Source of the DNA: a virus
Virus record (IMG/VR): IMGVR_UViG_3300028837_001591
Coordinates: 1-46,497 of that record
Length of the DNA: 46,497 bases
Reading direction: 5' to 3' (one strand)
Below are positions 8,326 through 27,745 of this stretch, in pieces; the first letter of the stretch is position 1; every line of letters starts with the position of its first letter. Position numbers and translations under genes: made by a program. The notes beneath the pieces were generated by a model that ran no database searches, was not told where the DNA came from, and worked only from the letters and a program-made list of their open reading frames with translations.

Positions 8326-10233
8326 ATGGAAATAAATACAGGCAAGACGGATGCGGAAAAAGATTTTCAGGATGCCTTCAATCAGGCATATGATTATTGG
8401 TTTCCCTGGATTGAGGCAGCTCACACCGATTTCAAGCACGCCATAGATAACCCCATATCCGAAACAGAACGGCAGAGGCTGAGAGATGAAAACCGTGAAG
8501 TCCTGCATTTCCCCGTTTTGCGTCGGATAGTATCGTTAATCACCGGATACGAGCGGCAAAACCGCTTAACACTCAAGATAGCCCCGGCTGAAGGCGAGGA
8601 TGACCAGGTGGCGAGCCAGCTCACCGGTGTAGTTATGCCGCTGATGGAGAATCATTGGGGCCATGAAGTTGTATCCGAAGCGTTCGAAAAGGGTTCTATG
8701 ATTACCGCCTCGAACCTGATTGAGCCGTACTTCGACCGCAATGGGGACATTCAATTCGCACGTAAATTTTACAACAAATTTCTTTTAGACCCGAACTTCA
8801 CACGCCGGGACTTAAAAGATTGTCGTTATATCATCATACATGAGCCGGACATGGACGCAGATTCTATAAAGAGTTTAATTCCCGGCGGTGAAAATAAGAT
8901 AGACGAAATCCTGAAATCGCCGGAATCCGGCACTAAGTTACCATACAGCTCTACATACAGCAGGGGCGAAGACGACAAAGGAACGCTGTCATTCTTCTGG
9001 GAGCGCACAACCAAGAGGGTAGATTTAATCGGCAACGCCCAGACCGGCAAATCGTTCATCTGGACCGGCAAAAAAGAGAGCCTCTACGAAATTCTTCAGC
9101 GATACCAGGGCAATTTACGTTCGTGGTCAGATTACATAGAGACCGTAAAGCTGTCTGTATTTGTGAACGGTTGGGAAGTATGGAAGGGCGGCGATCCTCA
9201 CAAGATAGACGATTACCCCTACGTCTGGATGGGCGGGTATTTCTATCCCGACTACGATGATGCAGCCGTTAAGCTGCAGGGTATCATCAGGCCGCTTAGG
9301 GATTGCGGTAGAGAATTAGACAGAAGGCTGTCAAAGATTCTCGACATTATCGACTCACAGGTACAGACTGGCTTAATGGCAGAGGAGAACGCACTGGTTA
9401 ACCCCGACATGATACACGCCTCCGGCCAGGGCAGGGGGATTGAAATAACAGAAGGGATGTGGGGGAAGGTTGAGAAAATACCATCAGGTGACATACCACC
9501 GGGCCTATTCCAGCTCAACAATGACCTGCAAAACTTAGTCAACCAAATAGCAGGCATAAATGAGTCGATGTTCGGCACAGAGGAAATCAATGCCCAGATG
9601 TCCGGCTACCTCTTAAAATTACGCCAGGGTGCCGGCTTGGTGTCATTACAGACCTTATTCGACAACCTTCGTTTCGCCAAAAAGCAGCTCGGCTTCAAGC
9701 TAATCAAGATGATACAGGCCAATTATTCACGGTCGAAGGTGCAGAGAATTCTAAACAAGCCGGTAGCGCCGGACTTCTACAAGCAGGATTTAGCACGCTA
9801 CGACATAACACCAGAGGAAGGCATACTCACCACTACACAGCGGCAAATGTTCTACACCGAATTAAGGCAACTCAAAGAGGCAGGCGCCCCGATCCCGTGG
9901 GACTTCATTTTGAAGCACTATCAATCGGCCTTACCGGATGAACTCCTGCAGGCTGTCAAACAGGCAGAGCAACAGCAAAGTCAGGCAGCACAGCAGGCGA
10001 TGGCAGAAAAGCAGAAACTCGACCAGATGCGCACCGCAAAGATTAACGCCGACAATGCCCGCGCAGCAGAGCGCGATGCACAGGTTGGCGAAAACAGGGC
10101 AGGGGCCGTTCTGGACAGGGTGAAAGCAATGAAGGTATTGCAGGGTATGGACTTCCAGCAACAGATGGACCTGTTGGATAGGGTCATAAAAATAGAGGAG
10201 ATAAACAAGAAAGCGAGTTTAACCAAACGATGA
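8326..10233 (+). CDS. Portal protein (P22-like)
   Basis: Forms the dodecameric ring at one capsid vertex through which DNA enters and leaves. The 635-residue protein fits the P22-type portal group: an N-terminal helical region with DNPISETERQRLRDE, then PVLRRIVSLITGYERQNRL, then FYNKFLLDP. A central NQIAGINESMFG lies near the clip/stem, and the C-terminal third is Gln/Ala-rich and helical, as in the barrel of podoviral portals. I chose ATG 8326 because upstream in-frame sequence is the terminator hairpin (a TTG at 8311 is the only alternative). It overlaps the next gene by ATGA. Confidence 0.88.
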   Translation: MEINTGKTDAEKDFQDAFNQAYDYWFPWIEAAHTDFKHAIDNPISETERQRLRDENREVLHFPVLRRIVSLITGYERQNRLTLKIAPAEGEDDQVASQLTGVVMPLMENHWGHEVVSEAFEKGSMITASNLIEPYFDRNGDIQFARKFYNKFLLDPNFTRRDLKDCRYIIIHEPDMDADSIKSLIPGGENKIDEILKSPESGTKLPYSSTYSRGEDDKGTLSFFWERTTKRVDLIGNAQTGKSFIWTGKKESLYEILQRYQGNLRSWSDYIETVKLSVFVNGWEVWKGGDPHKIDDYPYVWMGGYFYPDYDDAAVKLQGIIRPLRDCGRELDRRLSKILDIIDSQVQTGLMAEENALVNPDMIHASGQGRGIEITEGMWGKVEKIPSGDIPPGLFQLNNDLQNLVNQIAGINESMFGTEEINAQMSGYLLKLRQGAGLVSLQTLFDNLRFAKKQLGFKLIKMIQANYSRSKVQRILNKPVAPDFYKQDLARYDITPEEGILTTTQRQMFYTELRQLKEAGAPIPWDFILKHYQSALPDELLQAVKQAEQQQSQAAQQAMAEKQKLDQMRTAKINADNARAAERDAQVGENRAGAVLDRVKAMKVLQGMDFQQQMDLLDRVIKIEEINKKASLTKR

Positions 10234-10901: not shown

Positions 10902-11639
10902 ATGCCAGAAACTGAGCAAGAGCAGCAAACGGAGCAATCAGAAGCAACTGAGAACGTACAGACCGAACAGGACGAAAAGGTTGAAACGACCGAAAAGGTC
11001 GAAGAAACCGTCCCCAAGGCCCGGTTTGAGGAAGTTATGGCCGCAAAGAATGCCGCCGAGGAGAGGATAGACCTCTTAAATCAGCAGCAACAAGTAATCA
11101 TGGCCAACCAACAAAAGACCGAGCAGAAGCCGCCGTTTGACCCTTATTCAGCAGTCGGCGCAACAGATGATGATGAGGTGCTTACTGTAGGTCAGCAGAA
11201 AAGGATTGACAAGCACCGCATGACCGAAATCATGGCCGCTTTGTCTGAGGTTCAGTTTATGGCGTCCCACCCGAAGTTTGAAGAAATTGTTGGAACACCG
11301 GAACAGATAAGGGCGATGCAGTTTGCGCCGCCCTTAGCTAAAGCAATAAAACAAAATCCAGCCCTCATGCAAACGATTACCTTCAGTCCTAACCGGCGCG
11401 AAATCGCTTACCAGGTAGCCAAGTTGATGGTTGAAAACAAAACAGAAGCGAAACCACAACCGAAGCCTGAAGCAGAAGCCGGGGCGGTGATTGACGAGGC
11501 AATCCAGAACGCCAATACGGTGAAGTCATCGAGCAATGTAGCCGGAGGCAGCGGAGTGTTATCCGAAGAAGGCCGCTTGCTAAATATGTCTGATGAAGCC
11601 TTTGAAGATATGGCGCGCAAGAACGGGGCTGACATTTAG
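10902..11639 (+). CDS. Capsid scaffolding protein
   Basis: Directs capsid shell assembly and is then lost. The 245-residue protein has the typical scaffold composition: a very acidic Glu/Gln/Thr-rich N-terminus, a helix KARFEEVMAAKNAAEERIDLL, Gln runs, a middle domain and a short C-terminal helix (LNMSDEAFEDMARKNG) of the sort that binds the coat protein. It lies directly upstream of the major capsid gene, the standard position. Assignment rests on position and composition rather than a catalytic motif. Confidence 0.75.
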   Translation: MPETEQEQQTEQSEATENVQTEQDEKVETTEKVEETVPKARFEEVMAAKNAAEERIDLLNQQQQVIMANQQKTEQKPPFDPYSAVGATDDDEVLTVGQQKRIDKHRMTEIMAALSEVQFMASHPKFEEIVGTPEQIRAMQFAPPLAKAIKQNPALMQTITFSPNRREIAYQVAKLMVENKTEAKPQPKPEAEAGAVIDEAIQNANTVKSSSNVAGGSGVLSEEGRLLNMSDEAFEDMARKNGADI

Positions 11640-11650
11640 AAAGGAATAAC

Positions 11651-12619
11651 ATGGCTGACAATGTAACAACCACCGCCGTCATTACTCAGGTGGTAAACAC
11701 ATATCTCAACAGGATACTCCTGACGAAAAACAAACCGAAACTCATACATGAATTATTCGCCGATCGCTATACGATGAAGGCGAATAACGGCAATAACGTT
11801 TCATGGCGCCGTTACAACCAGTTGGCAACGGCTACCGCCGTCATTACAGAAGGCGTAACGCCGCCCGGAAAGCAACTGTCCAAACAGGATATTTCCGCAG
11901 AACTATCGCAGTACGGGGACTGGGTACACATCACCGATGTGCTGGAGTTCACCTGCGAAAACAAGATACTGAATGTTGCTACGAGCGAACTTAACGACCA
12001 AATGCACCGCACCCGTGACGAGTTAGTGAGAAATGTTCTTGTATCAAGTGCATCGGTTACGACCTGCTCGAAAGGTGATGTTGCCAAGACCGACTTCAAT
12101 GAGACCGACATCAATGCCATCACCCAAGCCCTGCAGAACGCCGACGCTCGTGAAGTTGCTCCTATGATTAAGGCAGGAACCGGACAGGGAACTAATCCCG
12201 TCTTGGCGAGCTACTGGATGCTTGCCAGTACAGAGCTTAACAGCGACTGGAAAAAGGTATCCGGCTGGCTCTCAATCGCCGAGTACGGCAACCAGAAGAC
12301 AGTATTGCCGGCCGAACGGTGCTCGATTGGTGAGGTTAGAATCCTTGCCAGTTCGGTGGCACACAAGGAAGGGAGTGCAACATCCGCCTTCCCGTCAAGC
12401 GCAGGGACGTATTATTACTGCCCGATACTTGCCAAGCACGCCTACGGAATAGTGGACTTCAAGGTAGCCAACGCCCATCTCATTATACACAAAAGAGGAT
12501 CGGGCGGCGTAAGCGATCCGCTAAACCAGCGGCAAACGGCAGCCTGGAAAGAAATGAACGTGTGCAGAATCTTGAACGATTACAACGTCGAGGTCCTGCG
12601 CGGCACGAAGATGTCTTAA
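11651..12619 (+). CDS. Major capsid protein, N4-gp56 family
   Basis: HK97-fold shell protein. The opening QVVNTYLNRILLTKNKPKLI and the blocks NNVSWRRYNQLATATAVITEG, GDWVHITDVLEF, 'RDELVRNVL' and the late 'HAYGIVDFK' plus 'LNQRQTAAWK' segments are characteristic of the N4-gp56 major capsid family. 322 residues fits that family, which is not cleaved like HK97 gp5. SD AAAGGAATAAC precedes ATG 11651. It follows the scaffold and precedes putative decoration proteins. Confidence 0.9.
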   Translation: MADNVTTTAVITQVVNTYLNRILLTKNKPKLIHELFADRYTMKANNGNNVSWRRYNQLATATAVITEGVTPPGKQLSKQDISAELSQYGDWVHITDVLEFTCENKILNVATSELNDQMHRTRDELVRNVLVSSASVTTCSKGDVAKTDFNETDINAITQALQNADAREVAPMIKAGTGQGTNPVLASYWMLASTELNSDWKKVSGWLSIAEYGNQKTVLPAERCSIGEVRILASSVAHKEGSATSAFPSSAGTYYYCPILAKHAYGIVDFKVANAHLIIHKRGSGGVSDPLNQRQTAAWKEMNVCRILNDYNVEVLRGTKMS

Positions 12620-14047: not shown

Positions 14048-17000
14048 ATGAAAAAATTGATAATATTTTTAATGATTGCCGTGATAGTATCTCCCTTGAT
14101 GGCCGTGCACAACCCTACTTTACGAGAGGCAGGCGGCAGTGGTCCCCACCAGCGGTACTTGAAGAAGCATCTCAACAGGATTGACCAGGCAATAGAAGAA
14201 GGTTCTGTTATTCCTAACATCGGGACCGGCGATATTTACTACGTCGATTCCGGTTCGGGACTTTCAGCTTCCGGCGCCGGTACATCGTGGAAAGGCGCCC
14301 TGCTTACTTTGGATGAGGCGTTTGACCTTACCACGGCCAACAACGGCGATATTGTCTATGTCGCCCAGAACCACGCCGAGTCCTTAGCCTCTGGTGACGA
14401 CGTTGACCACGATATAGACGGTGTTACTGTAATTGGTTTAGGCGTAGGTCTGGACCGGCCTACGTTTACATTTACCGGAACCGGCGGCGATTATGTCCTC
14501 GATTCGGCAAACGGTGTTGTGTGCAACCTGGTATTTCAATCGGGAATAGCCAATGTTGTCAACGGCATAGAGGTATCGGCAGACGCCGACGGAGCGGTAA
14601 TCGAGTTCTGCGAATTTCTTAGCGGTTCGACCGATGCTTATGAGTTTGTCGATTGTATTCAGGTTACTACCGGGGCCGACGACCTTATCATCCGATGGAA
14701 CAAGGCCACTGAAACGACCGCCGGTGCAAAGACATGGCTCGATTTGACGGCGGGTATCGTTGACAGTATCCAGGTCTACGGCAACAATGTTTACGGCGAC
14801 TATTCCGAAGCGGTCATCAACGGTGACAGCAAGGTACACACTTTGGGGTATTACGGCTGGAACACAACAACCAACCTCAACGCCGCTGATTACTCGTACA
14901 AGTTCACGGGTAACGCGACCGGTGTACTCGAATACAACAACGTATACGCCCTTGCCGAAGCGACTTCTATCGACGCCGGTGCGATGGCCTGTTTCGAGAA
15001 CTACGTTACTACCGCTACCCAGGTAAACGGGATGATATATCCCGCCACCGATAACGGCTCGACCCAGCTAAACGCAACCACCTGCAGCGCCATTGCTACG
15101 GCTGTAAACACATTGAGCGGTTATGCTATGTTGGCATCGTGCGATACCAATGCTTCTGCGGCTACGGTCGATTGTACGGCATTAGACGGATACGGAGACG
15201 ACTATTTCAATACGGGATGGTCGTTAGTTTGTATCCACGATCACGATGCACCCGGTACGCTGCAGGAAGGTGAAATCAGGGACATCGAAGATTACACCTC
15301 TACCGGTGGCGTCTTTACTGTTGACCCTGATTTTTCGGCGGCCATAACGGCGAATGATGATATTCTTGTCGTTCGGACAGAACACCTTAATCCCCACATG
15401 CCGGCCGCAGCCGGTTCCAGCAGCAAAAACATCTGGTACTGCGACGATGGCGGTTCGGCCGGTGACGGCAAGACATGGACAACCGCATCAATTACCTTGA
15501 AGGCCGCAGAGGCCCTTATGGCGGCAGGCGATGTTTGCTACATAGGTGCAAACCACACCGAGCACATATCCGCTGCCGATGCTGTTATTCTCAATTTGGC
15601 AGGCAGTCAGTTTATCGGCATGGGCGAAGGGACAACGAGGCCGCAGATGATAATGGAAGATACCGCTGGCGAGATCACACTTAGCGCCGCTGGTATCATC
15701 CTCAAGAACCTGCAAATAGTACCCGACGCCACCGTTACTGCAAGCGGCATTAGAGTTGAGGCTGCCGGTATCGGATGTACTATCGAGAACTGTGCTTTTG
15801 TTGACGGTTCAGATGACGACGATGAGTTTGTGGATTGTATCAGTGTCGCTGCATTGGCCTCGAATCTGACGGTCAAAAACTGCACATACGAAAACACCAA
15901 CCAGACGGCGGAGCATACCAACACATTCGTCAATCTCGACGAGACGACTATCGATAACCCCGCGATAATCGGGTGCTTTATTTATGGTGATTTCGCCGAG
16001 GCCGCGATTTGGAGCGATGACGTACCGACCAACGTACTAATTCAGGACAACGTGATTACCAATACCAACTCAGGTGATTGCTGCATCGAGTTTCAAAGTA
16101 CGGCGACCGGTATGTGTATCAACAATAAATTGTACGGCGATACGTTAGGGGCCATTCTCGATCCGGGCTCGATGTATTGTTACGGCAATACCGAGACCCT
16201 TGCTATCGACGAAGGCGGGCGGCCTCTCCCCGATATACCGCAAAAAATAGACTCGATTCACGGTACGGGCCAGGTTTTCTACGTTGACGCCTCCGGTTCA
16301 AACGGCGGCGGCAGGACGTGGGCGACGGCCAAGACTACACTTGATGCCGCTGTGGACTTATGTACGGATGACCGGGGCGATACTATTTACGTTGCCGCCG
16401 GCCATACTGAGACGGTTGTGGCTGATTTTGCGGACATCGACCAGGGCGGTATCACTGTAATCGGTTTAGGTAACGGTAAACTCCGACCCTATTTCGATTA
16501 TACAACCGGCGTAGGTTCTTCACTACTCGTTGAGGCCGATGACATTCTCATCAAAAATCTATGGTTCCACGCCAATATAAGTGCGATAGCCACGGCGATT
16601 GAGGTCAAAACAGGCTCGCTTGACGTTACTATCGAAGATTGCCTATTTACGTTTCAGGCGGCCAATGACGAATTTGAGATTTGCATTGACCACGCAGCTG
16701 GTAATCATGGTGCTGTTGTTAAAAACTGCGATTTCCAAATGGGAGCCGGCCAGGCGGTTTCAGCCATCCACTTCTTAGATGCCGACTATGCCGAAATTAT
16801 CGGTAATACAACTTCCGGTGATTACAGCACGGCGGTCATTCACAACGAGACTACAGCTTCCGATCATATCGTTATTGACGACAATATCGTGTTTAACGGT
16901 ACTATCGCCGGCGGCGAGGGCACCGAGCCTGGTATTGAACTGCTTGGTACGACCTCCGGTGTGATTTCCAATAATAACATCGTATGCCTTCTGGATGCTC

Positions 17001-17518
17001 CGGGTGAAGCGATTGTTGCTTTGGACTGTTATCTGTTTAACAACAAGTATAACGGCCTTGAATCGTCAAGCGGTGCTCGTGATATTGGCCTCACTGCCGG
17101 TAAGACATACGTAACAGCCAAATTAGACGGCGCTGCAGATGATGACGATTTGTTTGCTGTTGCCGGCGGCCCGATTCAGATAACCAAACTTTATGGTGTC
17201 TGCACGGTTGCGATTGGCGCTGCGTGTACCATAACTATCATTTGTGACAACGCACTTGCTGATGTTGAGTACACAGATGCAGTTGATATTAACACCCTGG
17301 ACCCAGGTGGGATTATATCGTTGACAGCAGCCAACCCGTCAGCAATAGCGGTCTTAAATCTGGGTGCAAACCTGGGTATGTCACTACTGATGGACCCCTG
17401 GTACTGTCCTGTAGGTGTGATTGAAATGGTTGATGATGGTGGCGGTACAACCGGAAACATTGAATGGTATATGACTTTTATACCGCTTGTTGATGGTGTA
17501 ACTGTAACGCCACAATAA
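14048..17518 (+). CDS. Large beta-helix virion adhesin/fibre-like protein with signal peptide, 1156 aa
   Basis: Begins with a Sec-type signal (MKKLIIFLMIAVIVSPLMA, then VHNP); ATG 14048 follows GAAAGGAAACG. The body has three related ~270-residue blocks. Each opens '.YYVDSGSG..W.GA..TLD.A' (residues ~61, ~458 and ~740) and continues with GDxxYV.A.H.E, 'VIGLG.G..RP' and short-turn repeats such as 'IENC.F.DGSDD.EFVDCI'. This is the pattern of a right-handed parallel beta-helix, as in tailspikes and pectate lyases. A distinct beta domain forms the last ~140 residues. No catalytic residues can be assigned. Position between capsid and adaptor genes suggests a surface fibre or decoration. Confidence 0.65.
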   Translation: MKKLIIFLMIAVIVSPLMAVHNPTLREAGGSGPHQRYLKKHLNRIDQAIEEGSVIPNIGTGDIYYVDSGSGLSASGAGTSWKGALLTLDEAFDLTTANNGDIVYVAQNHAESLASGDDVDHDIDGVTVIGLGVGLDRPTFTFTGTGGDYVLDSANGVVCNLVFQSGIANVVNGIEVSADADGAVIEFCEFLSGSTDAYEFVDCIQVTTGADDLIIRWNKATETTAGAKTWLDLTAGIVDSIQVYGNNVYGDYSEAVINGDSKVHTLGYYGWNTTTNLNAADYSYKFTGNATGVLEYNNVYALAEATSIDAGAMACFENYVTTATQVNGMIYPATDNGSTQLNATTCSAIATAVNTLSGYAMLASCDTNASAATVDCTALDGYGDDYFNTGWSLVCIHDHDAPGTLQEGEIRDIEDYTSTGGVFTVDPDFSAAITANDDILVVRTEHLNPHMPAAAGSSSKNIWYCDDGGSAGDGKTWTTASITLKAAEALMAAGDVCYIGANHTEHISAADAVILNLAGSQFIGMGEGTTRPQMIMEDTAGEITLSAAGIILKNLQIVPDATVTASGIRVEAAGIGCTIENCAFVDGSDDDDEFVDCISVAALASNLTVKNCTYENTNQTAEHTNTFVNLDETTIDNPAIIGCFIYGDFAEAAIWSDDVPTNVLIQDNVITNTNSGDCCIEFQSTATGMCINNKLYGDTLGAILDPGSMYCYGNTETLAIDEGGRPLPDIPQKIDSIHGTGQVFYVDASGSNGGGRTWATAKTTLDAAVDLCTDDRGDTIYVAAGHTETVVADFADIDQGGITVIGLGNGKLRPYFDYTTGVGSSLLVEADDILIKNLWFHANISAIATAIEVKTGSLDVTIEDCLFTFQAANDEFEICIDHAAGNHGAVVKNCDFQMGAGQAVSAIHFLDADYAEIIGNTTSGDYSTAVIHNETTASDHIVIDDNIVFNGTIAGGEGTEPGIELLGTTSGVISNNNIVCLLDAPGEAIVALDCYLFNNKYNGLESSSGARDIGLTAGKTYVTAKLDGAADDDDLFAVAGGPIQITKLYGVCTVAIGAACTITIICDNALADVEYTDAVDINTLDPGGIISLTAANPSAIAVLNLGANLGMSLLMDPWYCPVGVIEMVDDGGGTTGNIEWYMTFIPLVDGVTVTPQ

Positions 17519-17523
17519 CATTT

Positions 17524-17548
17524 AACGGGGCGCCCCGGGCGCCCCGTT
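17524..17548 (+). terminator. GC-rich perfect hairpin, terminator-like
   Basis: AACGGGGCGCC pairs with GGCGCCCCGTT, 11 base pairs with a 3-base loop, then ATTTCAT. It lies 6 bases after the fibre gene stop and 17 bases before the adaptor gene start. The weak T-tract suggests partial termination, mRNA 3'-end protection or processing rather than full termination. Confidence 0.6.
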
Positions 17549-17564
17549 ATTTCATAGGTGTAAC

Positions 17565-18584
17565 ATGGCTCAGACCTGGACCGGTACCGAAATAGTTACG
17601 AAATACAGGAACTTGACCGGCCTAAAAAGCACTTCTCAAAAGGCCGCGGCCACCGCTTTGGAAGAAATCAACGACTATTATCAGAACTATTTCCCGGTTG
17701 AGAGCAATTTAGAACGGTTCGAGACGGATTTTCAGCAGGCAATGGCAGTCGGGGATGATGGTAATTATGCAATTTGCGCGTCCTATCTGACGCTGCAGCC
17801 CCCCTATACCATTGATAATTTCACTGCAACGCTATTTACAGATAAGAGCAGGTTTGACAGCAAGTATCCTATCGAGACAAATCCATGCAACCTGACAGAC
17901 CCATCCTTAGTGATAGGTTCGAGTAGCACAACCGCTGTCGCCAACAGTGCCTTTTCGTATCGGACAGGCTCTTATTCGTATGCGAAAGCCGCAGCCGAAA
18001 CCGAATTATCCGGCGATACTATACCTCAGAACATGTACGGTGCCTACAGGCTGGAGATTGACTCAGATGGGACTATCTCAATCGTCGAGGCAGCCAATGG
18101 CACCGGATACAATTCGGCCGGAAAGGCCGTACAGGCCCTTGAGGCCGAAAGTGGTGATAACTGCTGTATGGGCTACCTGACTGTCATATCTACTGACAGC
18201 GGCGGTTTTGTGCCCGGAACAACCGGTCTTGACGATTCCGCCGTTACTGCGACCTATACAGACGGTTATCACTCCAATCGCGGGACGCCGACAGGGGTTT
18301 TGATTGACAGGCGCCGGTTGTGGTTTGGTCCGAAACCCGACGATATTCACGTATTCAAGGGTACGGCGATTGTCCGGCCGGACGCCCTGACCACTGCAAC
18401 GGCACCCCTCGATGTAGGGTGGGGTCTGGCTATCGCATACGGCGCGGCCGTTATCAGGAAAAGCGAAACAGATGATGACGAAGTTTTAGCAAATCTGATA
18501 CAAGCCAAAAACCATTTTATGAACTTAATCCGCCGGCCCGAACTAAGGCAAATGGCACAAACAAGGAGTACGCCAAGATGGTAG
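17565..18584 (+). CDS. Head-to-tail adaptor-like protein with inserted beta domain, 339 aa
   Basis: The N-terminal helices (TGTEIVTKYRNLTGLKSTSQ, ALEEINDYYQNYFP) and C-terminal helices (WGLAIAYGAAVIRKSETDDDE, NHFMNLIRRPELRQM) match the style of phage adaptor/tail-accessory proteins that dock on the portal. Between them lies a beta module (GAYRLEIDSDGTISIVEAAN, then FVPGTTGLD) typical of virion decoration domains. Absence of a signal peptide here contrasts with the neighbouring exported-type virion proteins. The assignment is by architecture and position ahead of the nozzle protein. Confidence 0.55.
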   Translation: MAQTWTGTEIVTKYRNLTGLKSTSQKAAATALEEINDYYQNYFPVESNLERFETDFQQAMAVGDDGNYAICASYLTLQPPYTIDNFTATLFTDKSRFDSKYPIETNPCNLTDPSLVIGSSSTTAVANSAFSYRTGSYSYAKAAAETELSGDTIPQNMYGAYRLEIDSDGTISIVEAANGTGYNSAGKAVQALEAESGDNCCMGYLTVISTDSGGFVPGTTGLDDSAVTATYTDGYHSNRGTPTGVLIDRRRLWFGPKPDDIHVFKGTAIVRPDALTTATAPLDVGWGLAIAYGAAVIRKSETDDDEVLANLIQAKNHFMNLIRRPELRQMAQTRSTPRW

Positions 18585-18594
18585 GGAACATGTA

Positions 18595-20286
18595 ATGGCT
18601 GCCAGTGTTAAATTTGGTATATTCGCTGATGTACATGTGGACCTGGTGCAAAGCGCCGCCACCTCTTTCGGCGATGCCATTTACAGCGGTTCACCTATCG
18701 GACATCGCATAGCAGGTTACCATACGACCTCGATGCCTCTGTTTAACGACAATGCTAACGCTGCCTCAGTGGATTTTTCGATATCCGTAGGCGACCTGGT
18801 TAATCCCGGTAGGTCGGACGCCGAGAGGATTACGCATTTTGCCGAATATGTGGAACATGTCGATGGAACAAAGAGCACTCAAAACGCAGATATGTATTAT
18901 GCTATCGGTCATTGGGACATGGGCGGTCCCGCAAACAATGCGGTGGACTGGAATAATTTCTTTGATAACACCAACGGTATCGGGTCGATAATACCTACCG
19001 CCGCCGCCGCTCCGGCCAACCCCTGGTGGCCTGACAGCCCCGCGGGAATAAGCGCTCAGTCACCTTGTGCTTACACATTTAACAAAAACAATATTATGAT
19101 GATTGTTCTATGCCTACCTTCGACCACGGTTAATATGGATTCAAGCGGTAAGTTCGGTGCCGGGTCTGTTGCCAAAACACAAAACGAATGGTTTCAGGAC
19201 CGCCTAAACGAGGCAGAGGCGGCCTCAGAGCCGGTAATAGTCTTTACCCATCAGACCTTAAAGGTGGATTATTGGCAGGGGACCGCACCTGCAGGCGCGG
19301 CAACGGCAATAACAGCAATGGAAAACCAGACAATTAAACCGATAGTATTTCAAGGCCACATACACTCATATCGGTTAATTGAAGAGTCGAATGGAATTGT
19401 TTACATCAATCTGACAGGTGACTTGTGGGGTGAAAACGAAACGGACACGGATCGGTTTTCCCACGCTATAGTTACGATTACCGGCCCTAATTACACGGAC
19501 GTGAACGGACAAAGATGTTCAATAGATTTGGTTGGTTATGGAAATCAAAGAAGCGAGGATATGACTATGGCACTTGTAGGGCATTGGAAACTAAACGAAA
19601 AAACGGGTACATCGGGCGCTAGTTCGATATTGGATTGCAGTGGAAATACATATCACGGCACACCCGCGACTTCGATTGTTGCCGTGAGCGCCCCTGTGGC
19701 CGGTGGCATAACATTTGATGGCACCAACGACTATATAAACGGGTCCGATACGATTATAAACGACTATCCCCTCTCTATTTCCTGTTGGGTCAGAGTTGCC
19801 GGCAATTTAGGAGCGGACGCATGTGTTGTATCGTTGGGAAATACTACAGCGGCCCGTCATCTATGCCTGTTAATCATTGCAAATGGAGCTGGTGTAAAGT
19901 GGGACGTTAAAACAACCATGTTAGCAACATACGCTTCTGGAGCGTTCGTCTGTAACGGGGTATGGCGACATATCGTAGGTGTTTCGGCGGCGAGCGATAA
20001 TCACAAAGTATATATTGACGGCAAACTCGGTTCGGGAGCAAGCACCACATCCAAGGCATTCAGCACAATGGATCAGTGGGCGATTGGTCGAAAGGAAGAT
20101 AATTCACCGGACAGCTTGTTTACCGGTGATATTAGTGACGTAAGAGTGTATTCCGGCGCCCTGACTGCCAATGACGTGGCGAATTTATTCTTACAGGGCG
20201 CCAACAGGATAAGAAGGTCAAGGTACAGCGGCATAAAGACCGCGAGTAAATCAAGGTTTCCAAGGAATCGATACAAAGGAGATTAA
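18595..20286 (+). CDS. Metallophosphoesterase-LamG lectin fusion, probable receptor-processing fibre, 563 aa
   Basis: The N-terminal calcineurin-like phosphoesterase domain has the full metal-binding set: D12-x-H14 (FADVH), D67 (VGDLV), H106 (IGHWD, the GNHD position with His for Asn), H219 (FTHQT) and H255-x-H257 (QGHIH). From about residue 325 a LamG/concanavalin-type jellyroll follows (VGHWKLNE..., GITFDGTNDYI, 'SISCWVRV', 'W.H.VGV', 'VYIDGK', 'ISDVRVYSGAL'). The pair implies binding a surface glycan and hydrolysing a phosphodiester or phosphomonoester on it. Asn-to-His in the GNHD motif could change activity. No signal peptide. Confidence 0.75.
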   Translation: MAASVKFGIFADVHVDLVQSAATSFGDAIYSGSPIGHRIAGYHTTSMPLFNDNANAASVDFSISVGDLVNPGRSDAERITHFAEYVEHVDGTKSTQNADMYYAIGHWDMGGPANNAVDWNNFFDNTNGIGSIIPTAAAAPANPWWPDSPAGISAQSPCAYTFNKNNIMMIVLCLPSTTVNMDSSGKFGAGSVAKTQNEWFQDRLNEAEAASEPVIVFTHQTLKVDYWQGTAPAGAATAITAMENQTIKPIVFQGHIHSYRLIEESNGIVYINLTGDLWGENETDTDRFSHAIVTITGPNYTDVNGQRCSIDLVGYGNQRSEDMTMALVGHWKLNEKTGTSGASSILDCSGNTYHGTPATSIVAVSAPVAGGITFDGTNDYINGSDTIINDYPLSISCWVRVAGNLGADACVVSLGNTTAARHLCLLIIANGAGVKWDVKTTMLATYASGAFVCNGVWRHIVGVSAASDNHKVYIDGKLGSGASTTSKAFSTMDQWAIGRKEDNSPDSLFTGDISDVRVYSGALTANDVANLFLQGANRIRRSRYSGIKTASKSRFPRNRYKGD

Positions 20287-20288
20287 GA

Positions 20289-21164
20289 ATGAAAAAAGTA
20301 ATGATTATTGTTTTACTGTTGATTGCGACAATGTTTACAGTCGGCGCCCGTACCATCACTCGAGTCAGGGAAGTGCACGGGCATATCCTTCACAGTTTAC
20401 AGGCCGGATGGGTAATTATCGATGAAACTACGAGTGCCGGAGACGAGGCGACGACCCTGGACGGCCTGCATGACGGATCGGCGGAAATGACCAAGGCGAA
20501 GGTAGAGGCGGCCATTGCGGCGGCTTCCAGCGGCGATGATGAGATAAGCACCTTCGTTATCCCTTCGGGTTGGAACGGGATACGGTTCAGAAGTGTTGGC
20601 ATAACCGAAGAAGACACACAAACCTACCAGGTATATTTAGGCTCGACGGGCGGCGGCGAAGATTGTGAATTGTCATACGCCGGGCAATTGGTATGGACCT
20701 CAGGCAGTCAATCTTCGGTATATTTTCAGATAACTTTCACATCGGGCGGCACTTACGTTCCGCAACCGGGTGACACTGTGACGGGCAATACTTCTGCTGA
20801 AACGGCTGTTGTCATGGCCACACCGACCGCGGCCACCGGCTCATTCGCCGCGGCGAACGCCACGGGTACTATTAAGTACAGGTCGAAATCCGGTACATTC
20901 ACAGGTTTGGAAACCGTAAAGATAGGTGATGGGAAGAATAACAAAGCCAACGTACTTACCCATGCGGACTCTGACCTGGTAGGTTTTGAATTGGCCGATT
21001 CGGTTGTGGTAACTGCGAAGTCATGGGGTTCGGCTTGGAGTACAACTTCGCCAGGGGATGATACGAATGCCGAGGCCGCACTTGACGTAAACGGAGCGGA
21101 TTATTTAGTGGTGTTAGCCAGCGAGACATCACACGACTGTAAATTGCTTGCGAAAGGATATTAA
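20289..21164 (+). CDS. Virion-associated beta protein with signal peptide, 291 aa
   Basis: SD AAAGGAGATTAAG precedes ATG 20289. N-terminus MKKVMIIVLLLIATMFTVGA is a clear Sec signal with a V-G-A cleavage site. The mature part is beta-rich, with a module 'GDTVTGNTSAETAVVMATPT' that is also found in the nozzle protein at 22675 ('GDTLTGATSNATATVI.IT'). The C-terminal 'VNGADYLVVLASETSHDCKL' resembles cell-surface/virion beta modules. Function likely structural. Confidence 0.55.
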   Translation: MKKVMIIVLLLIATMFTVGARTITRVREVHGHILHSLQAGWVIIDETTSAGDEATTLDGLHDGSAEMTKAKVEAAIAAASSGDDEISTFVIPSGWNGIRFRSVGITEEDTQTYQVYLGSTGGGEDCELSYAGQLVWTSGSQSSVYFQITFTSGGTYVPQPGDTVTGNTSAETAVVMATPTAATGSFAAANATGTIKYRSKSGTFTGLETVKIGDGKNNKANVLTHADSDLVGFELADSVVVTAKSWGSAWSTTSPGDDTNAEAALDVNGADYLVVLASETSHDCKLLAKGY

Positions 21165-21461
21165 ATGAGAATCAAACTTGCCTTAAAACCAGGCGAATTT
21201 AGTTACGACGGACACGACATTTATAACTCTGCCTGTGTTTTTCTGGAAGAAGCAGAGGCCGAAACAAAGAAAATCTTGGCAATGCTTAAAGAAGATGCAA
21301 AAAGAGTAATGCCTCGCAAACTGTTTAGAAAAGTGGCTTATTTTAGCCTGGATACTCTTGAGCGCAGAGTATTTATCTGGCGTTACGGTACAGACGAATG
21401 GATGTCTGAAGATGGAAGCAGTGAGGTATATTGTGAGTGCGGAAACAGGATTGATTATTAA
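21165..21461 (+). CDS. Hypothetical protein, 98 aa
   Basis: Starts directly after the stop of the previous gene. Polar helical middle (EEAEAETKKILAMLKEDAKR) and a C-terminal Cys pair (VYCECGNRIDY). It is AT-richer than the flanking virion genes and lacks a signal peptide, so it may be a later insertion between two exported-type virion genes. Function unknown. Confidence 0.55.
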   Translation: MRIKLALKPGEFSYDGHDIYNSACVFLEEAEAETKKILAMLKEDAKRVMPRKLFRKVAYFSLDTLERRVFIWRYGTDEWMSEDGSSEVYCECGNRIDY

Positions 21462-21479
21462 AAAGACAAGGAGTCAATA

Positions 21480-22472
21480 GTGGAAACTACAAAAAAAGTA
21501 TTGACGATAATTGCGATAGCGCTGATAATCAGTCCTGTTCTGTGGGGGGCATGGGACAAGACTAAGCCCGCGGCCGGTACGTCACTGCAAAGCTCAAACC
21601 CTGAGATATTAGCCAACTGGGCGGCTTTGGATACGAGTATAGATGCCGAGCATGATTTCGATACGGGCAGCCATACACCCGGATCGGCCAGGGCTTTTTT
21701 TCAGGACGCGGCACCTTCGACTCAGATTGACGGCGGTTCGTTTGCCGCAACGGATTTAGGGTCGTTATGGTTCGACACCAATTCTTCGATAGACAATACA
21801 TTTTACGTCCTTACCGCTACCACCCCGACATGGACCGCTGTAAACACAGAGATTATGGCGACCTTATTGGCGAGTGCCCGTGTGTTTGCGGGTACGTTAG
21901 GCGTTACAGGTGATTTAGCAGTCAATACAGACAAATTTACTGTAACGGCTACTTCCGGTAATACTCTTGTCGCGGGCACGTTCGACTCTACAGGAATCGC
22001 TACGCTCGGAGACGGTTCGCTTCTTAAAACTTCGGCGGCGCCTTCAACTGACGCGATGATATCCAACAAGAAATATGTAGATGACCAGTGCGATGCGCAT
22101 ATCGGGACCTCCGGTCAGTACCATAATTCAGGCACACAGGTATATGGCTCATCGGCGGCCGACGCCCCTTCTACATGGACAGATTTAGATTTGAGCGCTG
22201 TCGTAGGTTCAAATTATGCGATGGTGTTTCTGAAGATTATAGATACAGAGGGCGGAAATACTTTCCGAGTCCGCCCGAACGGAGATACATCCGATAGCGC
22301 CGACGGCTCACAGTCTTCTTCTGCCGGTTATGGAGCAAGTGCCGGTTATAACGGCGCGACAGGCAGGGCCGTCTATTTAATAGGGACTACAGATAGCAGT
22401 GGCGTCATAGAATGGGATGCTTATACGGCGGCAAGAGATACCGATGTTTGGGTAGTTGGCTACGTTATATGA
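21480..22472 (+). CDS. Fibre-like virion protein with signal peptide, 330 aa
   Basis: GTG start at 21480 behind AAGGAG. N-terminus METTKKVLTIIAIALIISPV then LWGAWDK is a signal peptide. The mature protein has fibre-type features: 'TKPAAGTSLQSSNPEILANW' (the 'P.~g.s...sp.i~.N~~al' opening of phage fibre proteins), 'HTPGSARAFFQDAAPSTQIDG', 'SLWFDTNSS' and a C-terminal beta domain ending 'DVWVVGYVI'. Likely a tail fibre or collar protein. Confidence 0.6.
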   Translation: METTKKVLTIIAIALIISPVLWGAWDKTKPAAGTSLQSSNPEILANWAALDTSIDAEHDFDTGSHTPGSARAFFQDAAPSTQIDGGSFAATDLGSLWFDTNSSIDNTFYVLTATTPTWTAVNTEIMATLLASARVFAGTLGVTGDLAVNTDKFTVTATSGNTLVAGTFDSTGIATLGDGSLLKTSAAPSTDAMISNKKYVDDQCDAHIGTSGQYHNSGTQVYGSSAADAPSTWTDLDLSAVVGSNYAMVFLKIIDTEGGNTFRVRPNGDTSDSADGSQSSSAGYGASAGYNGATGRAVYLIGTTDSSGVIEWDAYTAARDTDVWVVGYVI

Positions 22473-22507
22473 AAAAAACAAAGCTCATATAAAATGAAGG
22501 GAACAAG

Positions 22508-22678
22508 ATGGACGAACAAAAACCCAAAATCGAAGGTTGGCGCAAAATGGGTATAGCAATGGGTTCGATAACGGCCTTATCTTTACAAACCGGTATAGAT
22601 TTCAAGATAGCGGTCATCATAGGAGCGATTGCTATATACGGGATAACGGCGCAAGCGATTGTAGATTGGAAAAAATGA
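22508..22678 (+). CDS. Small membrane protein, holin-like candidate, 56 aa
   Basis: ATG 22508 runs to TGA 22676-22678, overlapping the nozzle gene ATG at 22675. A polar N-terminus (DEQKPKIEGWRK) is followed by a hydrophobic middle with one or two membrane segments (MGIAMGSITALSLQTG, then FKIAVIIGAIAIYGITAQA) and the charged end DWKK. Size and topology suit a small holin or membrane-associated accessory. It sits within the tail module rather than beside the lysis genes. Confidence 0.55.
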   Translation: MDEQKPKIEGWRKMGIAMGSITALSLQTGIDFKIAVIIGAIAIYGITAQAIVDWKK

Positions 22679-24831
22679 AACGCCTAATCGTATTTTTATT
22701 ATTATGTACGACTGTGTTCGGTGCCGATTACGAGCCGTACCCGATATATAATATGAAGGGGGGAATGGTCACAAGCCGGGAGCCGTGGTTATTGGCCAAG
22801 GACGAATTTGAACTCCTTGAGAACTGTCACTTGAAGGACGGGGTATTAGAGAAAAGAAGGGGATACACCGATTTCGGCCAGATGCTTGAGGCCGATACCG
22901 CGTCGAAAGACCCCTGCCTTTTATCTAATCCGATAATGGGGATATTCAACTGGTATTCCGGTGACACAGAGCAATTGATAATAATGAACCAGGACCGCGT
23001 GGCAAAGTATGAAACATCCCGTGTTCAACAAATAACTGTTACGAGTGTAGCCGATATCGCCGGCGGCGATGTAAGGTGTACTACCTCGACAACGCACGGA
23101 CTCGCTGTGGGCGATATGATAACCTACACTACAACATCCGGCAAAGACTTAGATGGCATTTATGACGTGACCGGGGTAAACGCCGGCAACAAGACCTTTG
23201 ATATTACGGCTACTTATAGCGGCACATCGGGAGGCACGTTGAACCAGGAGCCTTTTAACGACCTCACTACGTCAAAGATAAAATTCACATACCACAACGA
23301 TTATGATGACCCTACCAATAATACGGTCCAGGCCCACACACTTATTGTCGGCGACACACTGACGGGCGCTACATCGAACGCCACTGCTACGGTTATCACA
23401 ATAACCGTCGATACCGGTTCATGGGCGGCGAATACGGCTTGCGGCACGATTCACCTGTCCGATATCGACACCGGGTCAGACCAGACAGGGACGTTTGAAG
23501 ATGAAAACATAACGGACGGTTCGAATATAGTCGGTCATGTATGGGGCGATTCGGACGATGAGGAGTTTACCGGCGACAACACGGATTTTTTTTGGGTCGA
23601 GAACTGGAAAGAAATTTCGTACATAACAAACAACAACGATGCAATACAGAAGTATGACGGCGACTATAACACGCTCACACAATTAAATATAGACCTCGAT
23701 GTAGAGGGTGGCTCGTACAATGATATTACGAGATGCCGCTTAATCTTCGCCATAAAGAGCCGGCTCGTACTATTTGATATTGACGACACCGGCACTACTT
23801 ACAGGTCGAGGGCGAGATGGTGCGAAATAAATGACCCGTACACGTGGAAGAATGCAAGTTATATTGACGCCCCGACAGATGAATGGATAATCGCCGCCGA
23901 TTTTCTCGGTGATGATTTGATAGTCTTTTTTGAGCGGAGTATCTGGAAGTTTTCTTACACCGGCGACGCCGACTATCCGTTCCGGTGGGACAAGATAGAT
24001 GCGGTCGAAGGATGTTATGCCACGATGAGCCTTATCCCCTTTTCCGATGAGATTTTCGGGGTTGGCGCAACCAGGATGATAGGCACGGACGGACGCGAGG
24101 CATATACGGTAGACGACAAAATCCCTGAGTTCGTAATGGGTTGGGTAGCCGAATCCGCCCCTTACTGCTACGGTCTTGTCCTCGAAGAAGAAAGGCAGGC
24201 TTGGGTATCATATACATCCACAAGCGCCTCTGCGAACGCGGACGGCAATAAATATTCCGATAGCGCCCTTGTCCTGAATTACGAGGACAACTGTTTCGCT
24301 ACTTACACTTTACCCATCCACACGCTCGGCTATTCCAGCCTCGAATCCGATTTGACATGGAACGACGTTACGGACGCATGGGAAGATATCGACTGGGCCT
24401 GGAACGACAAAAGCATACAGGCCGGCTATCCAACTACATTGATGGGATCACAGGATGGCTTCGTATATAAATTAAATTTCAAAAGCAGCGACGACGGTTC
24501 GGATATTGAGTTTAACGCGACAACGGGCAGGTGGAACCCTTACCCGTTCGGGCAGTCACGTTTGGGATGGGTTGATTTTCTTGTCGATCGCGATTCGGGT
24601 GCCTCTTTCGATGTGAAATTCTATCTCAATTCCGAGGCCACGTCATACCAGACATCTTCTATAAGCTGTACGGAGTCCGGTACGTCGAGAGATAAAGTCT
24701 GGAAAAGGGCTAATTGCGGGGCTGTCGGAGACTTTCACCGTATTAACATAACAAACGATGCCTCAAATAACCGACCAAGGATTCATGCTATTGTGGCCTA
24801 TTTCAAGAAAGCGGGACACCTCGACTTATGA
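22675..24831 (+). CDS. Tail nozzle / DNA-stabilisation (gp10-like) protein with signal peptide, 718 aa
   Basis: N-terminus MKRLIVFLLLCTTVFGADY is a Sec signal. The mature protein then opens as expected for podoviral nozzle/stabilisation proteins: PIYNMKGGMVTSREPWLLAK, ENCHLKDGVLEKRRGYTDFG, then 'MGIFNW' and 'DRVAKY'. Later blocks (KEISYITNNNDAIQKYDG, RLVLFDIDD, NDPYTWKNASYID, 'VFFERSIWKF') also fit beta-propeller nozzle proteins. An inserted module around residues 130-280 shares the 'GDTLTGATSNATATVI' pattern with the 20289 protein. I chose ATG 22675 because the upstream in-frame extension overlaps the small membrane gene. Confidence 0.7.
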   Translation: MKRLIVFLLLCTTVFGADYEPYPIYNMKGGMVTSREPWLLAKDEFELLENCHLKDGVLEKRRGYTDFGQMLEADTASKDPCLLSNPIMGIFNWYSGDTEQLIIMNQDRVAKYETSRVQQITVTSVADIAGGDVRCTTSTTHGLAVGDMITYTTTSGKDLDGIYDVTGVNAGNKTFDITATYSGTSGGTLNQEPFNDLTTSKIKFTYHNDYDDPTNNTVQAHTLIVGDTLTGATSNATATVITITVDTGSWAANTACGTIHLSDIDTGSDQTGTFEDENITDGSNIVGHVWGDSDDEEFTGDNTDFFWVENWKEISYITNNNDAIQKYDGDYNTLTQLNIDLDVEGGSYNDITRCRLIFAIKSRLVLFDIDDTGTTYRSRARWCEINDPYTWKNASYIDAPTDEWIIAADFLGDDLIVFFERSIWKFSYTGDADYPFRWDKIDAVEGCYATMSLIPFSDEIFGVGATRMIGTDGREAYTVDDKIPEFVMGWVAESAPYCYGLVLEEERQAWVSYTSTSASANADGNKYSDSALVLNYEDNCFATYTLPIHTLGYSSLESDLTWNDVTDAWEDIDWAWNDKSIQAGYPTTLMGSQDGFVYKLNFKSSDDGSDIEFNATTGRWNPYPFGQSRLGWVDFLVDRDSGASFDVKFYLNSEATSYQTSSISCTESGTSRDKVWKRANCGAVGDFHRINITNDASNNRPRIHAIVAYFKKAGHLDL

Positions 24832-26414
24832 GAAAAACTATAATCATATTTCTGCTATTAACAGGTATCTGCCGGGCCACTTTGATTGAGAGGGTCAGGG
24901 AAACCGAGCGGTTCAAGACCTACGAAGATGAAGATGACCTCATAAAATATCTGAAGGACCTCGTTGTATGGAACGAAAAGACATATAGCGATGTTGCCGG
25001 ACGGGTCAACTGGCTTATTGACAGGGATGAATTTGGCGCCGGCGTTAAGCTCATAGGGGACGAAGAAAGCGTTATCTGGTATAACGGTGATTATACATGG
25101 GCGGAGAAAGCAAGTGGTTCACTTGCCGCAAGTTATGTAATAATCAAGCCCCCGGATATAGGGGCTACCGGCAAGCAATTAACTGTTTCGGTATCCGGGA
25201 CCACGGGTACAATGAGCTGGGAGGACCCCGGCGGTATCGGTGGTGTGGGCGATATCGATGCTGTGGGCGATGCAACATCCGGCTCTGCTTTTACCGTTAC
25301 AGGCGCGGGAAACAGTTTATGGTTTGAGGGTTCTACGGCCGATGGTATCGAAACGATTTTAACCGCAGCCGACCCTACCGGTACTGACAAGACAATTACC
25401 CTGCCGAACATAACGGGCACGGTCATACTTTCCGGTCATTCATTGACCGGTGATGTTACGGGGACTGCCGGGGCGGCGGCGACAACAGCGTTATCATTGA
25501 ACGGCGATTGTGTTGACGAAAACCATATCGCCGACAACGGTATTGATTCTGAGCACTACAACGACGACTCAATAGATGCCGAACACATAAACACTATTAC
25601 CTGCGGCACAAACTGCACATGGGACGCTGCGAACGACGAGGTTGATGTTGATGACGCCTTTGTAAAGAACAGTGAAGCCGATACTATGGCAGGCGACTTG
25701 ACTTTTGATAATACCGCAACCCAAGACTGGTTATGGACCGGAAGTTTCGCAAGTCTGGCTTTACAGGCCCAAAGCGCCGCAACTGCTGCGAGATTTCAAC
25801 TTTACTCTAAAGACGGTGATGAGACTGACGATATTCTGTACGAGGTTTACACGGATGGTGCACCTGGGGAGATTGATAACTCTCAGTGGATGCGACAGGG
25901 CTGGAACCAGACTGAGGGAGCGTTTCGGATTGAAGTAGGGAAAAGCGGGACCGGTTCGAATAAAAGCCTTGAAATAGTAACTACCAACGAGCTACGTTTA
26001 GAACCAGCAGCCATATTATATTTGAGTGGTGGAGCCGTATATTCAACGACTATCGAAGAAGATGAAACAGCCGAATCTGCGAATATGCACATCAGTAACG
26101 CCGGTAAAATATACAAAAGCGTATCAGGCCGCGGGTACAAAACAAATATAGTGTACCTGACAGAAGGGGAAGCGTCTTTTGTTCTCGACTTAAAGCCGCG
26201 CAAATTTAACAGTCGATGTGCAGGCGATGACAAGAAAAAAGACTTTTACGGGTTCATTGCCGATGAGGTAGCTGCTGTGTGTCCACAGGCGGCGAGATAT
26301 GACCCCAACGGTGTACCGGACGGCTACGATGACAGGTTTATTTTAGCTGCTCTTGTAAAAACAGTACAAGAGCAAGAGGCAAGAATAAGGATACTTGAAG
26401 AAAAGATAAAATGA
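24828..26414 (+). CDS. Tail fibre with signal peptide and C-terminal S74 self-cleaving chaperone domain, 528 aa
   Basis: The start overlaps the previous stop (ATGA). N-terminus MRKTIIIFLLLTGICRA is signal-like. The middle has fibre repeats typical of trimeric spikes ('TLPNITGTVILSGHSLTGDV', then 'AATTALSLNGDCVDENHIAD'). The last ~100 residues fit the intramolecular chaperone/peptidase S74 domain: SGRGYKTNIVYL in place of 'SD.RLKTNI', 'LKPRKFN', 'YGFIADEVAAVCPQ', 'DRFILAALVKTVQEQEARI' and a final coiled coil. Such domains trimerise the fibre and then cut themselves off. The phage receptor-binding role is inferred. Confidence 0.75.
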   Translation: MRKTIIIFLLLTGICRATLIERVRETERFKTYEDEDDLIKYLKDLVVWNEKTYSDVAGRVNWLIDRDEFGAGVKLIGDEESVIWYNGDYTWAEKASGSLAASYVIIKPPDIGATGKQLTVSVSGTTGTMSWEDPGGIGGVGDIDAVGDATSGSAFTVTGAGNSLWFEGSTADGIETILTAADPTGTDKTITLPNITGTVILSGHSLTGDVTGTAGAAATTALSLNGDCVDENHIADNGIDSEHYNDDSIDAEHINTITCGTNCTWDAANDEVDVDDAFVKNSEADTMAGDLTFDNTATQDWLWTGSFASLALQAQSAATAARFQLYSKDGDETDDILYEVYTDGAPGEIDNSQWMRQGWNQTEGAFRIEVGKSGTGSNKSLEIVTTNELRLEPAAILYLSGGAVYSTTIEEDETAESANMHISNAGKIYKSVSGRGYKTNIVYLTEGEASFVLDLKPRKFNSRCAGDDKKKDFYGFIADEVAAVCPQAARYDPNGVPDGYDDRFILAALVKTVQEQEARIRILEEKIK

Positions 26415-27745
26415 ACGTTAAAATTTTATTTATCTCGAACTCTGGAGAGGGGCTACCGATAGCATACAGGCTTCGCAGGGAAGGGGCCGATGCGCAGATA
26501 TACGTACACAATCCCCAATACCGGATAAATTACGAGGGCATTGTCCCGAAGGTCGGGATAAGCGGCTTGAAAAAGGCCGTCAAGTCGGCGGGAATAATCG
26601 TATTTGATATTACTCACCCGAACGAACGGAAGAAGCATGATATGGTCATGTTGAAGTTGTTCGGTATCAAGGCGAGTTCATCCTCTGTTTTCGGAGCGGT
26701 TGCGGACAAACTAAAGGAAAGCCACAAAGTAATAGGGGCGTCAAGAGTTACGGAGAGCCGCGAACTGGAACGGGAGACAGGGATAAAAATCGCCAAAAAG
26801 ATAGGTTTTGCGATACCGGAATACCACAAGTTTCGTTCATTGAACGAAGGTCTGAAATTTCTGAAAAGCCGTAAGGATTTATGGGTATTCAAGCCGGATA
26901 ACAACCAGGACCTGGATTTGACTTACGTAGAGAAATTCACCGGTGAACTTGCCATGAAGATGTCGGGCGAATGGCAGCAGAGGATAGGGGACGAATGCAA
27001 ATATATTTTGCAGCAGAAAATTGAAGGAGCCGAGGTATCTACAGAAGTATGGGTGGGGCCGAATGGGCCAGAACATTTCAATAGAACCATTGAGGATAAA
27101 AAGTTGATGACTGGCAATATCGGCCCCGCCATTGGTTCCCAATCGAACACTGTATGGACAGAGAACGATTTGGAATCTATCGGAATCCCCGAACTGATGA
27201 AAATGGCCGCATATTTGAAAGCAAACGACTATCTCGGACCCTGCGATGCCAACCTTATAATAAATAACAACACACCGTATTTTCTCGAATGGAGTCCGCG
27301 TTTCGGGTATGACGCTATCTACTGTTTGTTTGAACTCATAAAAGGAAAACTGACTGACTTTTTTGAAAAGGATTTCAATGTCGATTTTCACGCTGGGTAT
27401 GCAGCTTCGCAGAGATTGACCATCCCGCCGTTTCCTTACGCAAGCCCGAAACTCCGTTCTGAATTTGCCAAAGATGTCACTATCTTTGGCGACCTGGCCA
27501 AAATGCCGCGGTTCTGGGCTCAGGATGTTTACCAGAACGCCGGTCATTTGGCTTGTGCAGGGGCCGATGGAATTTTAGGGGTAGTATCCGGTCGTGGCGA
27601 TTCGTTAGGCAAAGCATGGGGTCAGGTGTACGGCGCCGTAGACAGGATGAAGGTATGCTCTTATCTCCAGTATCGCACCGATGGTTTCAAGTCCGCCGAG
27701 AAGCGGATGTCAATTTTTAATAAGCAAAGGAGAAAAAGTGCCTAA
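26411..27745 (+). CDS. ATP-grasp ligase related to phosphoribosylamine-glycine ligase, 444 aa
   Basis: Coupled to the fibre gene by ATGA. The fold elements resemble PurD-type ATP-grasp enzymes: N-terminal NVKILFISNSGEGLPIAYRL, ATP-binding Lys161 (WVFKPD), 'QQKIEGAEVSTEVWV' at 201-215, 'GNIGPAIGSQ' at ~236-244 (like GNTGGMG) and the metal-binding end LGPCDANLI...FLEWSPRFG, with Asp279, Glu293 and Ser295 where Asn is usual. PurD makes glycinamide ribonucleotide, but the tail-module setting and the divergence point instead to ligation of a small molecule or amino acid to a virion or host surface component. That substrate is inference. Confidence 0.7.
   Translation: MNVKILFISNSGEGLPIAYRLRREGADAQIYVHNPQYRINYEGIVPKVGISGLKKAVKSAGIIVFDITHPNERKKHDMVMLKLFGIKASSSSVFGAVADKLKESHKVIGASRVTESRELERETGIKIAKKIGFAIPEYHKFRSLNEGLKFLKSRKDLWVFKPDNNQDLDLTYVEKFTGELAMKMSGEWQQRIGDECKYILQQKIEGAEVSTEVWVGPNGPEHFNRTIEDKKLMTGNIGPAIGSQSNTVWTENDLESIGIPELMKMAAYLKANDYLGPCDANLIINNNTPYFLEWSPRFGYDAIYCLFELIKGKLTDFFEKDFNVDFHAGYAASQRLTIPPFPYASPKLRSEFAKDVTIFGDLAKMPRFWAQDVYQNAGHLACAGADGILGVVSGRGDSLGKAWGQVYGAVDRMKVCSYLQYRTDGFKSAEKRMSIFNKQRRKSA

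Follow-up and report, generated by a model that had tools for sequence, protein, structure and literature searches.

To our knowledge, the virions of tailed phages are regarded as assembling wholly in the cytoplasm. The filamentous phage M13 builds its coat from pIII and pVIII, which carry cleavable Sec signals and enter or cross the inner membrane before they are used. Late addition of parts is familiar among tailed phages, where P22 tailspikes and T4 fibres attach to finished heads. Tailed-phage proteins that pass through Sec before lysis include the Sec-exported and signal-arrest-release (SAR) endolysins (PMC7143992). In Bdellovibrio, the MAT proteins are trimeric S74 fibres with signal peptides that reach the bacterial surface (PMC10769870). 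The present analysis concerns IMGVR_UViG_3300028837_001591, a 46.5 kb IMG/VR contig of an uncultured P22-like podovirus, whose whole length of 46,497 nt is called the window. Five genes of its virion module, encoding fibre or appendage proteins and the tail nozzle, open with Sec-type leaders. It seems fairly likely that these leaders are genuine, that leaders on appendage proteins are a habit of the whole clade, and that the fibres are exported and then joined to heads.

Leaders on five virion-module genes

All five genes lie on the plus strand. The first encodes a long fibre-like protein of 1156 amino acids (14048..17518) with the Sec-type leader MKKLIIFLMIAVIVSPLMA (14048-14104), after which the protein continues VHN. 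A short appendage protein of 291 amino acids (20289..21164) begins with MKKVMIIVLLLIATMFTVGA (20289-20348) and continues RT, and a tail-fibre protein with a GTG start (21480..22472) begins with METTKKVLTIIAIALIISPVLWG (21480-21548) and continues AWD. The tail nozzle protein, of 718 amino acids (22675..24831), carries MKRLIVFLLLCTTVFG (22675-22722) ahead of ADY. The last is a fibre with an N-terminal 'TERF' domain and a C-terminal S74 chaperone domain (24828..26414; PF13884 Peptidase_S74), in which MRKTIIIFLLLTGICRA (24828-24878) precedes TL. Read directly, each N-terminus has between one and three basic residues, then a hydrophobic core and a small residue, followed by a polar mature start. 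The hydrophobic runs are short, at about 11–17 residues, and the five leaders show the basic n-region, 8–16 residue core and small residues before the cut that are typical of Sec substrates of signal peptidase I. They are best read as genuine, cleavable signals of this type.

The start codons are supported by upstream ribosome sites at 14048 (AAGGA), 20289 (GGAG) and 21480 (GGAG), and at 22675 and 24828 the start codon forms an ATGA overlap with the preceding gene's stop. A preliminary description had proposed that these five genes open with Sec signal peptides, which the direct reading and the supported starts confirm. It had also held that the leaders do not derive from one duplicated segment, and within the window they indeed have little DNA in common.

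Several other identities for the leaders were tried and rejected. Wrong start codons were ruled out by the ribosome sites, the ATGA coupling and conservation, and a single duplicated leader by the scarcity of common DNA. A lipoprotein or twin-arginine translocation (Tat) signal was ruled out by missing motifs: the signal peptidase II lipobox [LVI][ASTVI][GAS]C occurs in 0/5 leaders, while it is present in other window genes (34864, 35573), and a twin-arginine motif occurs in 0/5 n-regions. Tat-like twin-arginine starts (MITRRKFIKGF..., MKRRDFLKLVG...) are found elsewhere, on small proteins of ~80–170 amino acids near the portal and scaffold, in the window (7944-8237) and in at least six related contigs (L025 16976; L035 1529, 3100; L038 3247; L040 27; L042 3204; L049 3258).

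Appendage and core genes across the clade

The window virus is probably a temperate P22-like podovirus, an assignment based on a portal of family PF16510, a capsid of phrog_1357 and a tyrosine integrase; its short-tail module lacks a tape measure and its portal is of P22 type. About 20 further contigs of related uncultured P22-like phages, many of them partial, were gathered from IMG/VR with nozzle and adaptor profiles, the conserved adaptor family serving to locate the clade. The gene order adaptor-fibre-nozzle is maintained among these relatives. As a single-sequence probe the capsid recovered zero relatives, and INPHARED gave no match to the window's nozzle or 21480-family protein.

All signal calls were made with a purpose-written rule-based caller. 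On a benchmark of 44 E. coli genes it detected five of six known exported proteins, with flgH falling just under threshold, and made no cytosolic calls; its single false positive was MltG, which is anchored in the inner membrane. Six annotated podoviruses (P22, Bjorn, BcepIL02, Pavtok, Mae-JY35 and a Manatee Spring phage) gave three calls among the 104 open reading frames (ORFs) of their virion modules, namely a pair of antisense ORFs and a small membrane gene that does not encode a virion part. No virion gene in these six genomes received a credible call. Within the clade the caller overlooked some evident leaders (L048_9769, L050_4271, L006_12595), so the clade counts are conservative.

With this caller, 67 of 123 appendage-module ORFs of at least 120 amino acids were signal-positive across the clade, compared with 1 of 141 core virion genes including the nozzle (Fisher p about 5e-27, phylogeny ignored). 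The sole core call is the window nozzle. No calls were made among clade portals (0/13), scaffolds (0/18), capsids (0/17), adaptors (0/20), the 12654 family (0/18) or ejection proteins (0/16). Leaders are likewise absent in the window from the P22-like portal (8326..10233; PF16510, E 5e-59), the scaffold-type protein (10902..11639; assigned by position and composition), the major capsid protein (11651..12619; phrog_1357, E 1.5e-39) and the head-tail adaptor-like protein (17565..18584; assigned by position), all on the plus strand. The earlier view that the signals are selective, sparing portal, scaffold, capsid and adaptor, thus holds for the window as for each relative. Among appendages, the 20289 family is signal-positive in 8/8 members and the upstream fibre family (14048) in 8/10. 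No gene of the module carries a leader in the outgroup L011-L015, which is more distant and has the same nozzle family, and one clade member (L047 9420-13638) has an entirely leaderless sequenced appendage module, which makes it a naturally occurring negative control.

The gain and loss of leaders is clearest in the 21480 fibre family, where a leader is present in 18 phages and absent in 10. The conserved mature N-terminus, A[WF]DKxKPA...SNPEILANW (AWDKTKPA in the window), is of docking type. In nine of the ten leaderless proteins the initiating M (or GTG codon) immediately precedes A[WF]D or A[WF]N, and the tenth opens with MTLWD, giving the junction M/A[WF]D against G/A[WF]D in the leader form (a slash marks the start of the mature protein). 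In 16 of the leader-positive members the leader directly adjoins the domain; their residue -1 is G in 13, A in two and S in one, and such uniformity has a binomial p of about 2e-10 against a 25% background, kinship ignored. Since the leaderless starts coincide with the predicted cut, Met removal or signal-peptidase cleavage would produce an identical N-terminus. Leader state changes at least four times on the adaptor tree.

The leaders also evolve differently from the proteins that they precede. In eight orthologue pairs they are 14–72% identical, compared with 85–96% for the adjoining 23–27 mature residues, and peak hydrophobicity is retained. Such fast divergence with hydrophobicity retained is the signal-peptide mode of evolution, and the leaderless orthologues with the same junction show that the leader is removable with the mature protein unchanged, as a signal peptide should be. 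The preliminary description had regarded homologues starting downstream of the hydrophobic segment as grounds for refutation. This is the case for homologues of the nozzle, for those of the conserved N-terminus of 24828 and, among the 28 relatives of 21480, for ten. Because proteins with and without the segment occur side by side and begin their mature part alike, these homologues point instead to an appended, removable signal. The cysteine content of the 21480 family offers no useful difference in support of disulphide enrichment in exported fibres (0.73 per 100 amino acids in leader-positive and 0.69 in leaderless members).

Other families behave in a similar way. The DRR family toggles between a leader form, ALA/ASFDRR, and a leaderless form, M/ATLDRR. 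Relatives encode the TERF domain in a gene of its own that has no leader; in the window the domain is fused to the S74 fibre and has a leader. Leader-positive fibres also occur outside the podovirus clade in L077 (2941-3600, 3627-4109), alongside a homologue of the central tail fibre J, and the 21480-type fibre among them has a good ribosome site. This neighbourhood suggests that phages other than podoviruses may share the leader habit.

Further features adjoin these genes. Window positions 18595-20286 encode a metallophosphatase and LamG lectin-like protein without a leader, and LamG fibres with leaders occur in L004 (4031) and L010 (12449). An ATP-grasp-like gene adjoining the fibres is conserved in three phages (window 26411-27745, L002 4018, L007 14976). 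Just upstream of the first leader gene lies a low-complexity tandem coding repeat (13860-14034; KAEPKAEP...KRKAKRKAK), and the late region includes a gene for an ICMT/PEMT-like membrane methyltransferase (29168-29515).

The nozzle leader and competing explanations

The identification of 22675 as a nozzle protein in the preliminary description is borne out. Alone, it has no Pfam or PHROG match. The profile of its family finds the Vibrio phage VP1 nozzle gp16 (hmmsearch E 2e-10), and Foldseek matches its AlphaFold model (predicted local distance difference test score, pLDDT, 71) to the SU10 nozzle (1.4e-27), P22 gp10 (4.4e-15) and T7 gp12, so that both the beta-propeller fold and the sequence family are those of a nozzle. 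In the model, residues 1-16 are disordered and lie outside the nozzle fold, and the first strand (20-24) begins just past the predicted cut. A repeat-like beta domain (VGDTLTGATS...GTFEDENI) is common to the fibre at 20289-21164 and the nozzle at 22675-24831 and clusters both together.

The preliminary description rightly called the gp10/nozzle protein conserved, but this does not extend to an export signal, because the leader is confined to the window. It is present in 0/18 clade relatives, most of which have in-frame stops close upstream, and is also absent from the outgroups. The mature start in the window, VFG/ADYEPYPI, corresponds to the relatives' leaderless M[SPA]YTPFPI. The leader DNA (22675-22720) matches L040 10922-10966 over 46 nt at 83% identity (E 2.5e-6, local set), a stretch that is the leader of a fibre gene unrelated to the nozzle. 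This match hints that leaders shuffle between genes as cassettes, with convergence as a conceivable alternative. Between the fibre and nozzle genes, a plus-strand gene for a small membrane protein of 56 amino acids (22508..22678) was found in the window only, as an insertion with no homologue in the relatives. It is a possible holin, and its TGA overlaps the nozzle ATG as ATGA, which fixes the nozzle start.

Whether the window nozzle is functionally exported is finely balanced. A rival explanation that concerns the nozzle only, in which the leader is non-functional or bypassed through an internal GTG (22714) or inefficient export and the nozzle stays cytoplasmic, is a serious contender, if somewhat short of an even chance. 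It fits the absence of the leader from 18/18 relatives, and the in-frame GTG lies just upstream of the mature start. However, this GTG has no ribosome site, a weakness tempered by several relatives' nozzle starts, which also have no clear one. The annotated ATG overlaps the upstream stop in the manner usual for coupled starts in this operon, and the leader retains a clean n-h-c layout.

A number of observations weigh against export as favoured here. The nozzle leader is known from one contig only and is short, at 16 amino acids. P22 heads without gp10 lose their packaged DNA, and, because gp10 retains the DNA, nozzle export is hard to square with stable heads before lysis. Either another closure protein, partial nozzle export, or a cytoplasmic nozzle from an internal start would solve this conflict. 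At residue -3, members of the 21480 family have F in 5/16 cases and Q in 1/16, departing from the classic AxA. In addition, two scans with the nozzle and adaptor profiles for a host prophage among 84,980 species found nothing.

Uncleaved hydrophobic N-termini are an improbable alternative for the fibres and the window nozzle, whether as inner-membrane assembly anchors or as virion-docking or membrane-penetrating peptides. A hydrophobic stretch by itself cannot separate a signal from an anchor, the caller also flagged the N-terminal anchor of MltG, and the F at -3 in some 21480-family leaders would suit an anchor. Conversely, a small residue stands exactly at the junction in 16/16 cases, ten phages have leaderless orthologues with the same mature start, making an anchor unnecessary, the window's hydrophobic runs are short, and an extension of 18–24 residues would directly abut the docking domain. 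The junction resembles a signal peptidase I site and coincides with the leaderless orthologue starts, which disfavours the membrane-anchored assembly raised as an option in the preliminary description.

Slightly less probable again is export of the fibres for an extra-virion role, as secreted or surface adhesins, depolymerases or receptor blockers in infection or lysogeny. Possible purposes are superinfection exclusion and cell attachment, as with the Bdellovibrio MAT fibres, which likewise combine a signal peptide, fibre and S74 domain on the surface (PMC10769870). Several clade fibres have lectin-like LamG or beta-helix domains, and the phages are probably temperate, having an integrase. Nevertheless, in every relative these genes lie within the virion operon around the adaptor and nozzle, the nozzle has no plausible extracellular job, and export appears dispensable for the function of the 21480 family, which is leaderless in ten phages. 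A leaderless member of this family in L002 has a C-terminal Phage Tail Collar domain (PF07484, E 4e-26); this identifies the family as a tail fibre, and as it also works without a leader in the ten phages, it is a virion part rather than solely a secreted factor. Almost no weight attaches to hydrophobic starts arising by chance, to wrongly placed start codons or to misassembly, which are already refuted for the fibres by conservation: the contig is metagenomic, but about 20 independent contigs show the pattern, the starts have ribosome sites or are coupled, and the control phages are clean.

Proposed assembly and comparison with known systems

Judged from sequence, fibre export has a good probability and leader cleavage a slightly better one. 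In the proposed mechanism, the clade places its appendage signals right before the N-terminal docking domain of fibres, while head, portal, adaptor, nozzle and ejection proteins would remain cytoplasmic. Heads would be built and filled with DNA in the cytoplasm, and late in infection host Sec would translocate the fibres, whose leaders would then be cut off. Folding and trimerisation of the mature fibres would take place in the periplasm or, in a monoderm host, outside the cell, and the fibres would join the heads once the inner membrane fails at lysis. Joining after lysis is about as probable as not joining then. Leaders would also have been gained in the window lineage by the nozzle and by the S74 fibre's fused TERF domain, and with the nozzle the exported set would include a tail-hub protein. 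Full two-compartment assembly, with heads made in the cytoplasm, appendages and the window-lineage nozzle hub outside the inner membrane, and the parts joined at or after lysis, is a tentative and rather doubtful proposal. The preliminary description had suggested export of virion parts or late periplasmic assembly; for the fibres export is the best reading, and the nozzle signal is restricted to the window.

If the proposed mechanism is true, tail completion would be separable in space and time from head filling. Removable export signals appear to have been fitted repeatedly to receptor-binding appendages and never to the head. Natural orthologues with and without a leader, with one mature N-terminus, offer a clean experimental comparison, and in a foreign host such fibres would be exported or sent to the wrong place. 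The leaders would escape notice in annotation pipelines that move or shorten gene starts. The literature searched, a scope that did not extend to subscription papers and preprints, contained no description of a tailed phage with Sec signals on several of its virion proteins.

The closest systems each match the window in part. The window nozzle has the fold and genomic place of the P22, SU10 and T7 nozzles (gp10, gp12), but a signal peptide is present only on the window copy, those of known phages and of the clade relatives being leaderless. Sec-exported and SAR endolysins are lysis enzymes, and SAR domains are retained; the window leaders are on virion parts and are predicted to be cut off. 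The layout of 24828, and the layout only, resembles that of the Bdellovibrio MAT proteins, with a signal peptide, conserved N-terminal domain, variable phage-like fibre and S74 chaperone; in MAT proteins the N-terminal domain behind the signal spans about 130 amino acids. However, MAT proteins are encoded by bacterial genes and have been shown on the predator surface, whereas the window genes form a phage operon beside the adaptor and nozzle and some of their orthologues are leaderless. M13 pIII and pVIII are alike in being virion proteins that bear Sec signals. Inoviruses, however, extrude through the envelope with no tail or lysis, while in the window the signals are on P22-like tail appendages and the head proteins are apparently cytoplasmic.

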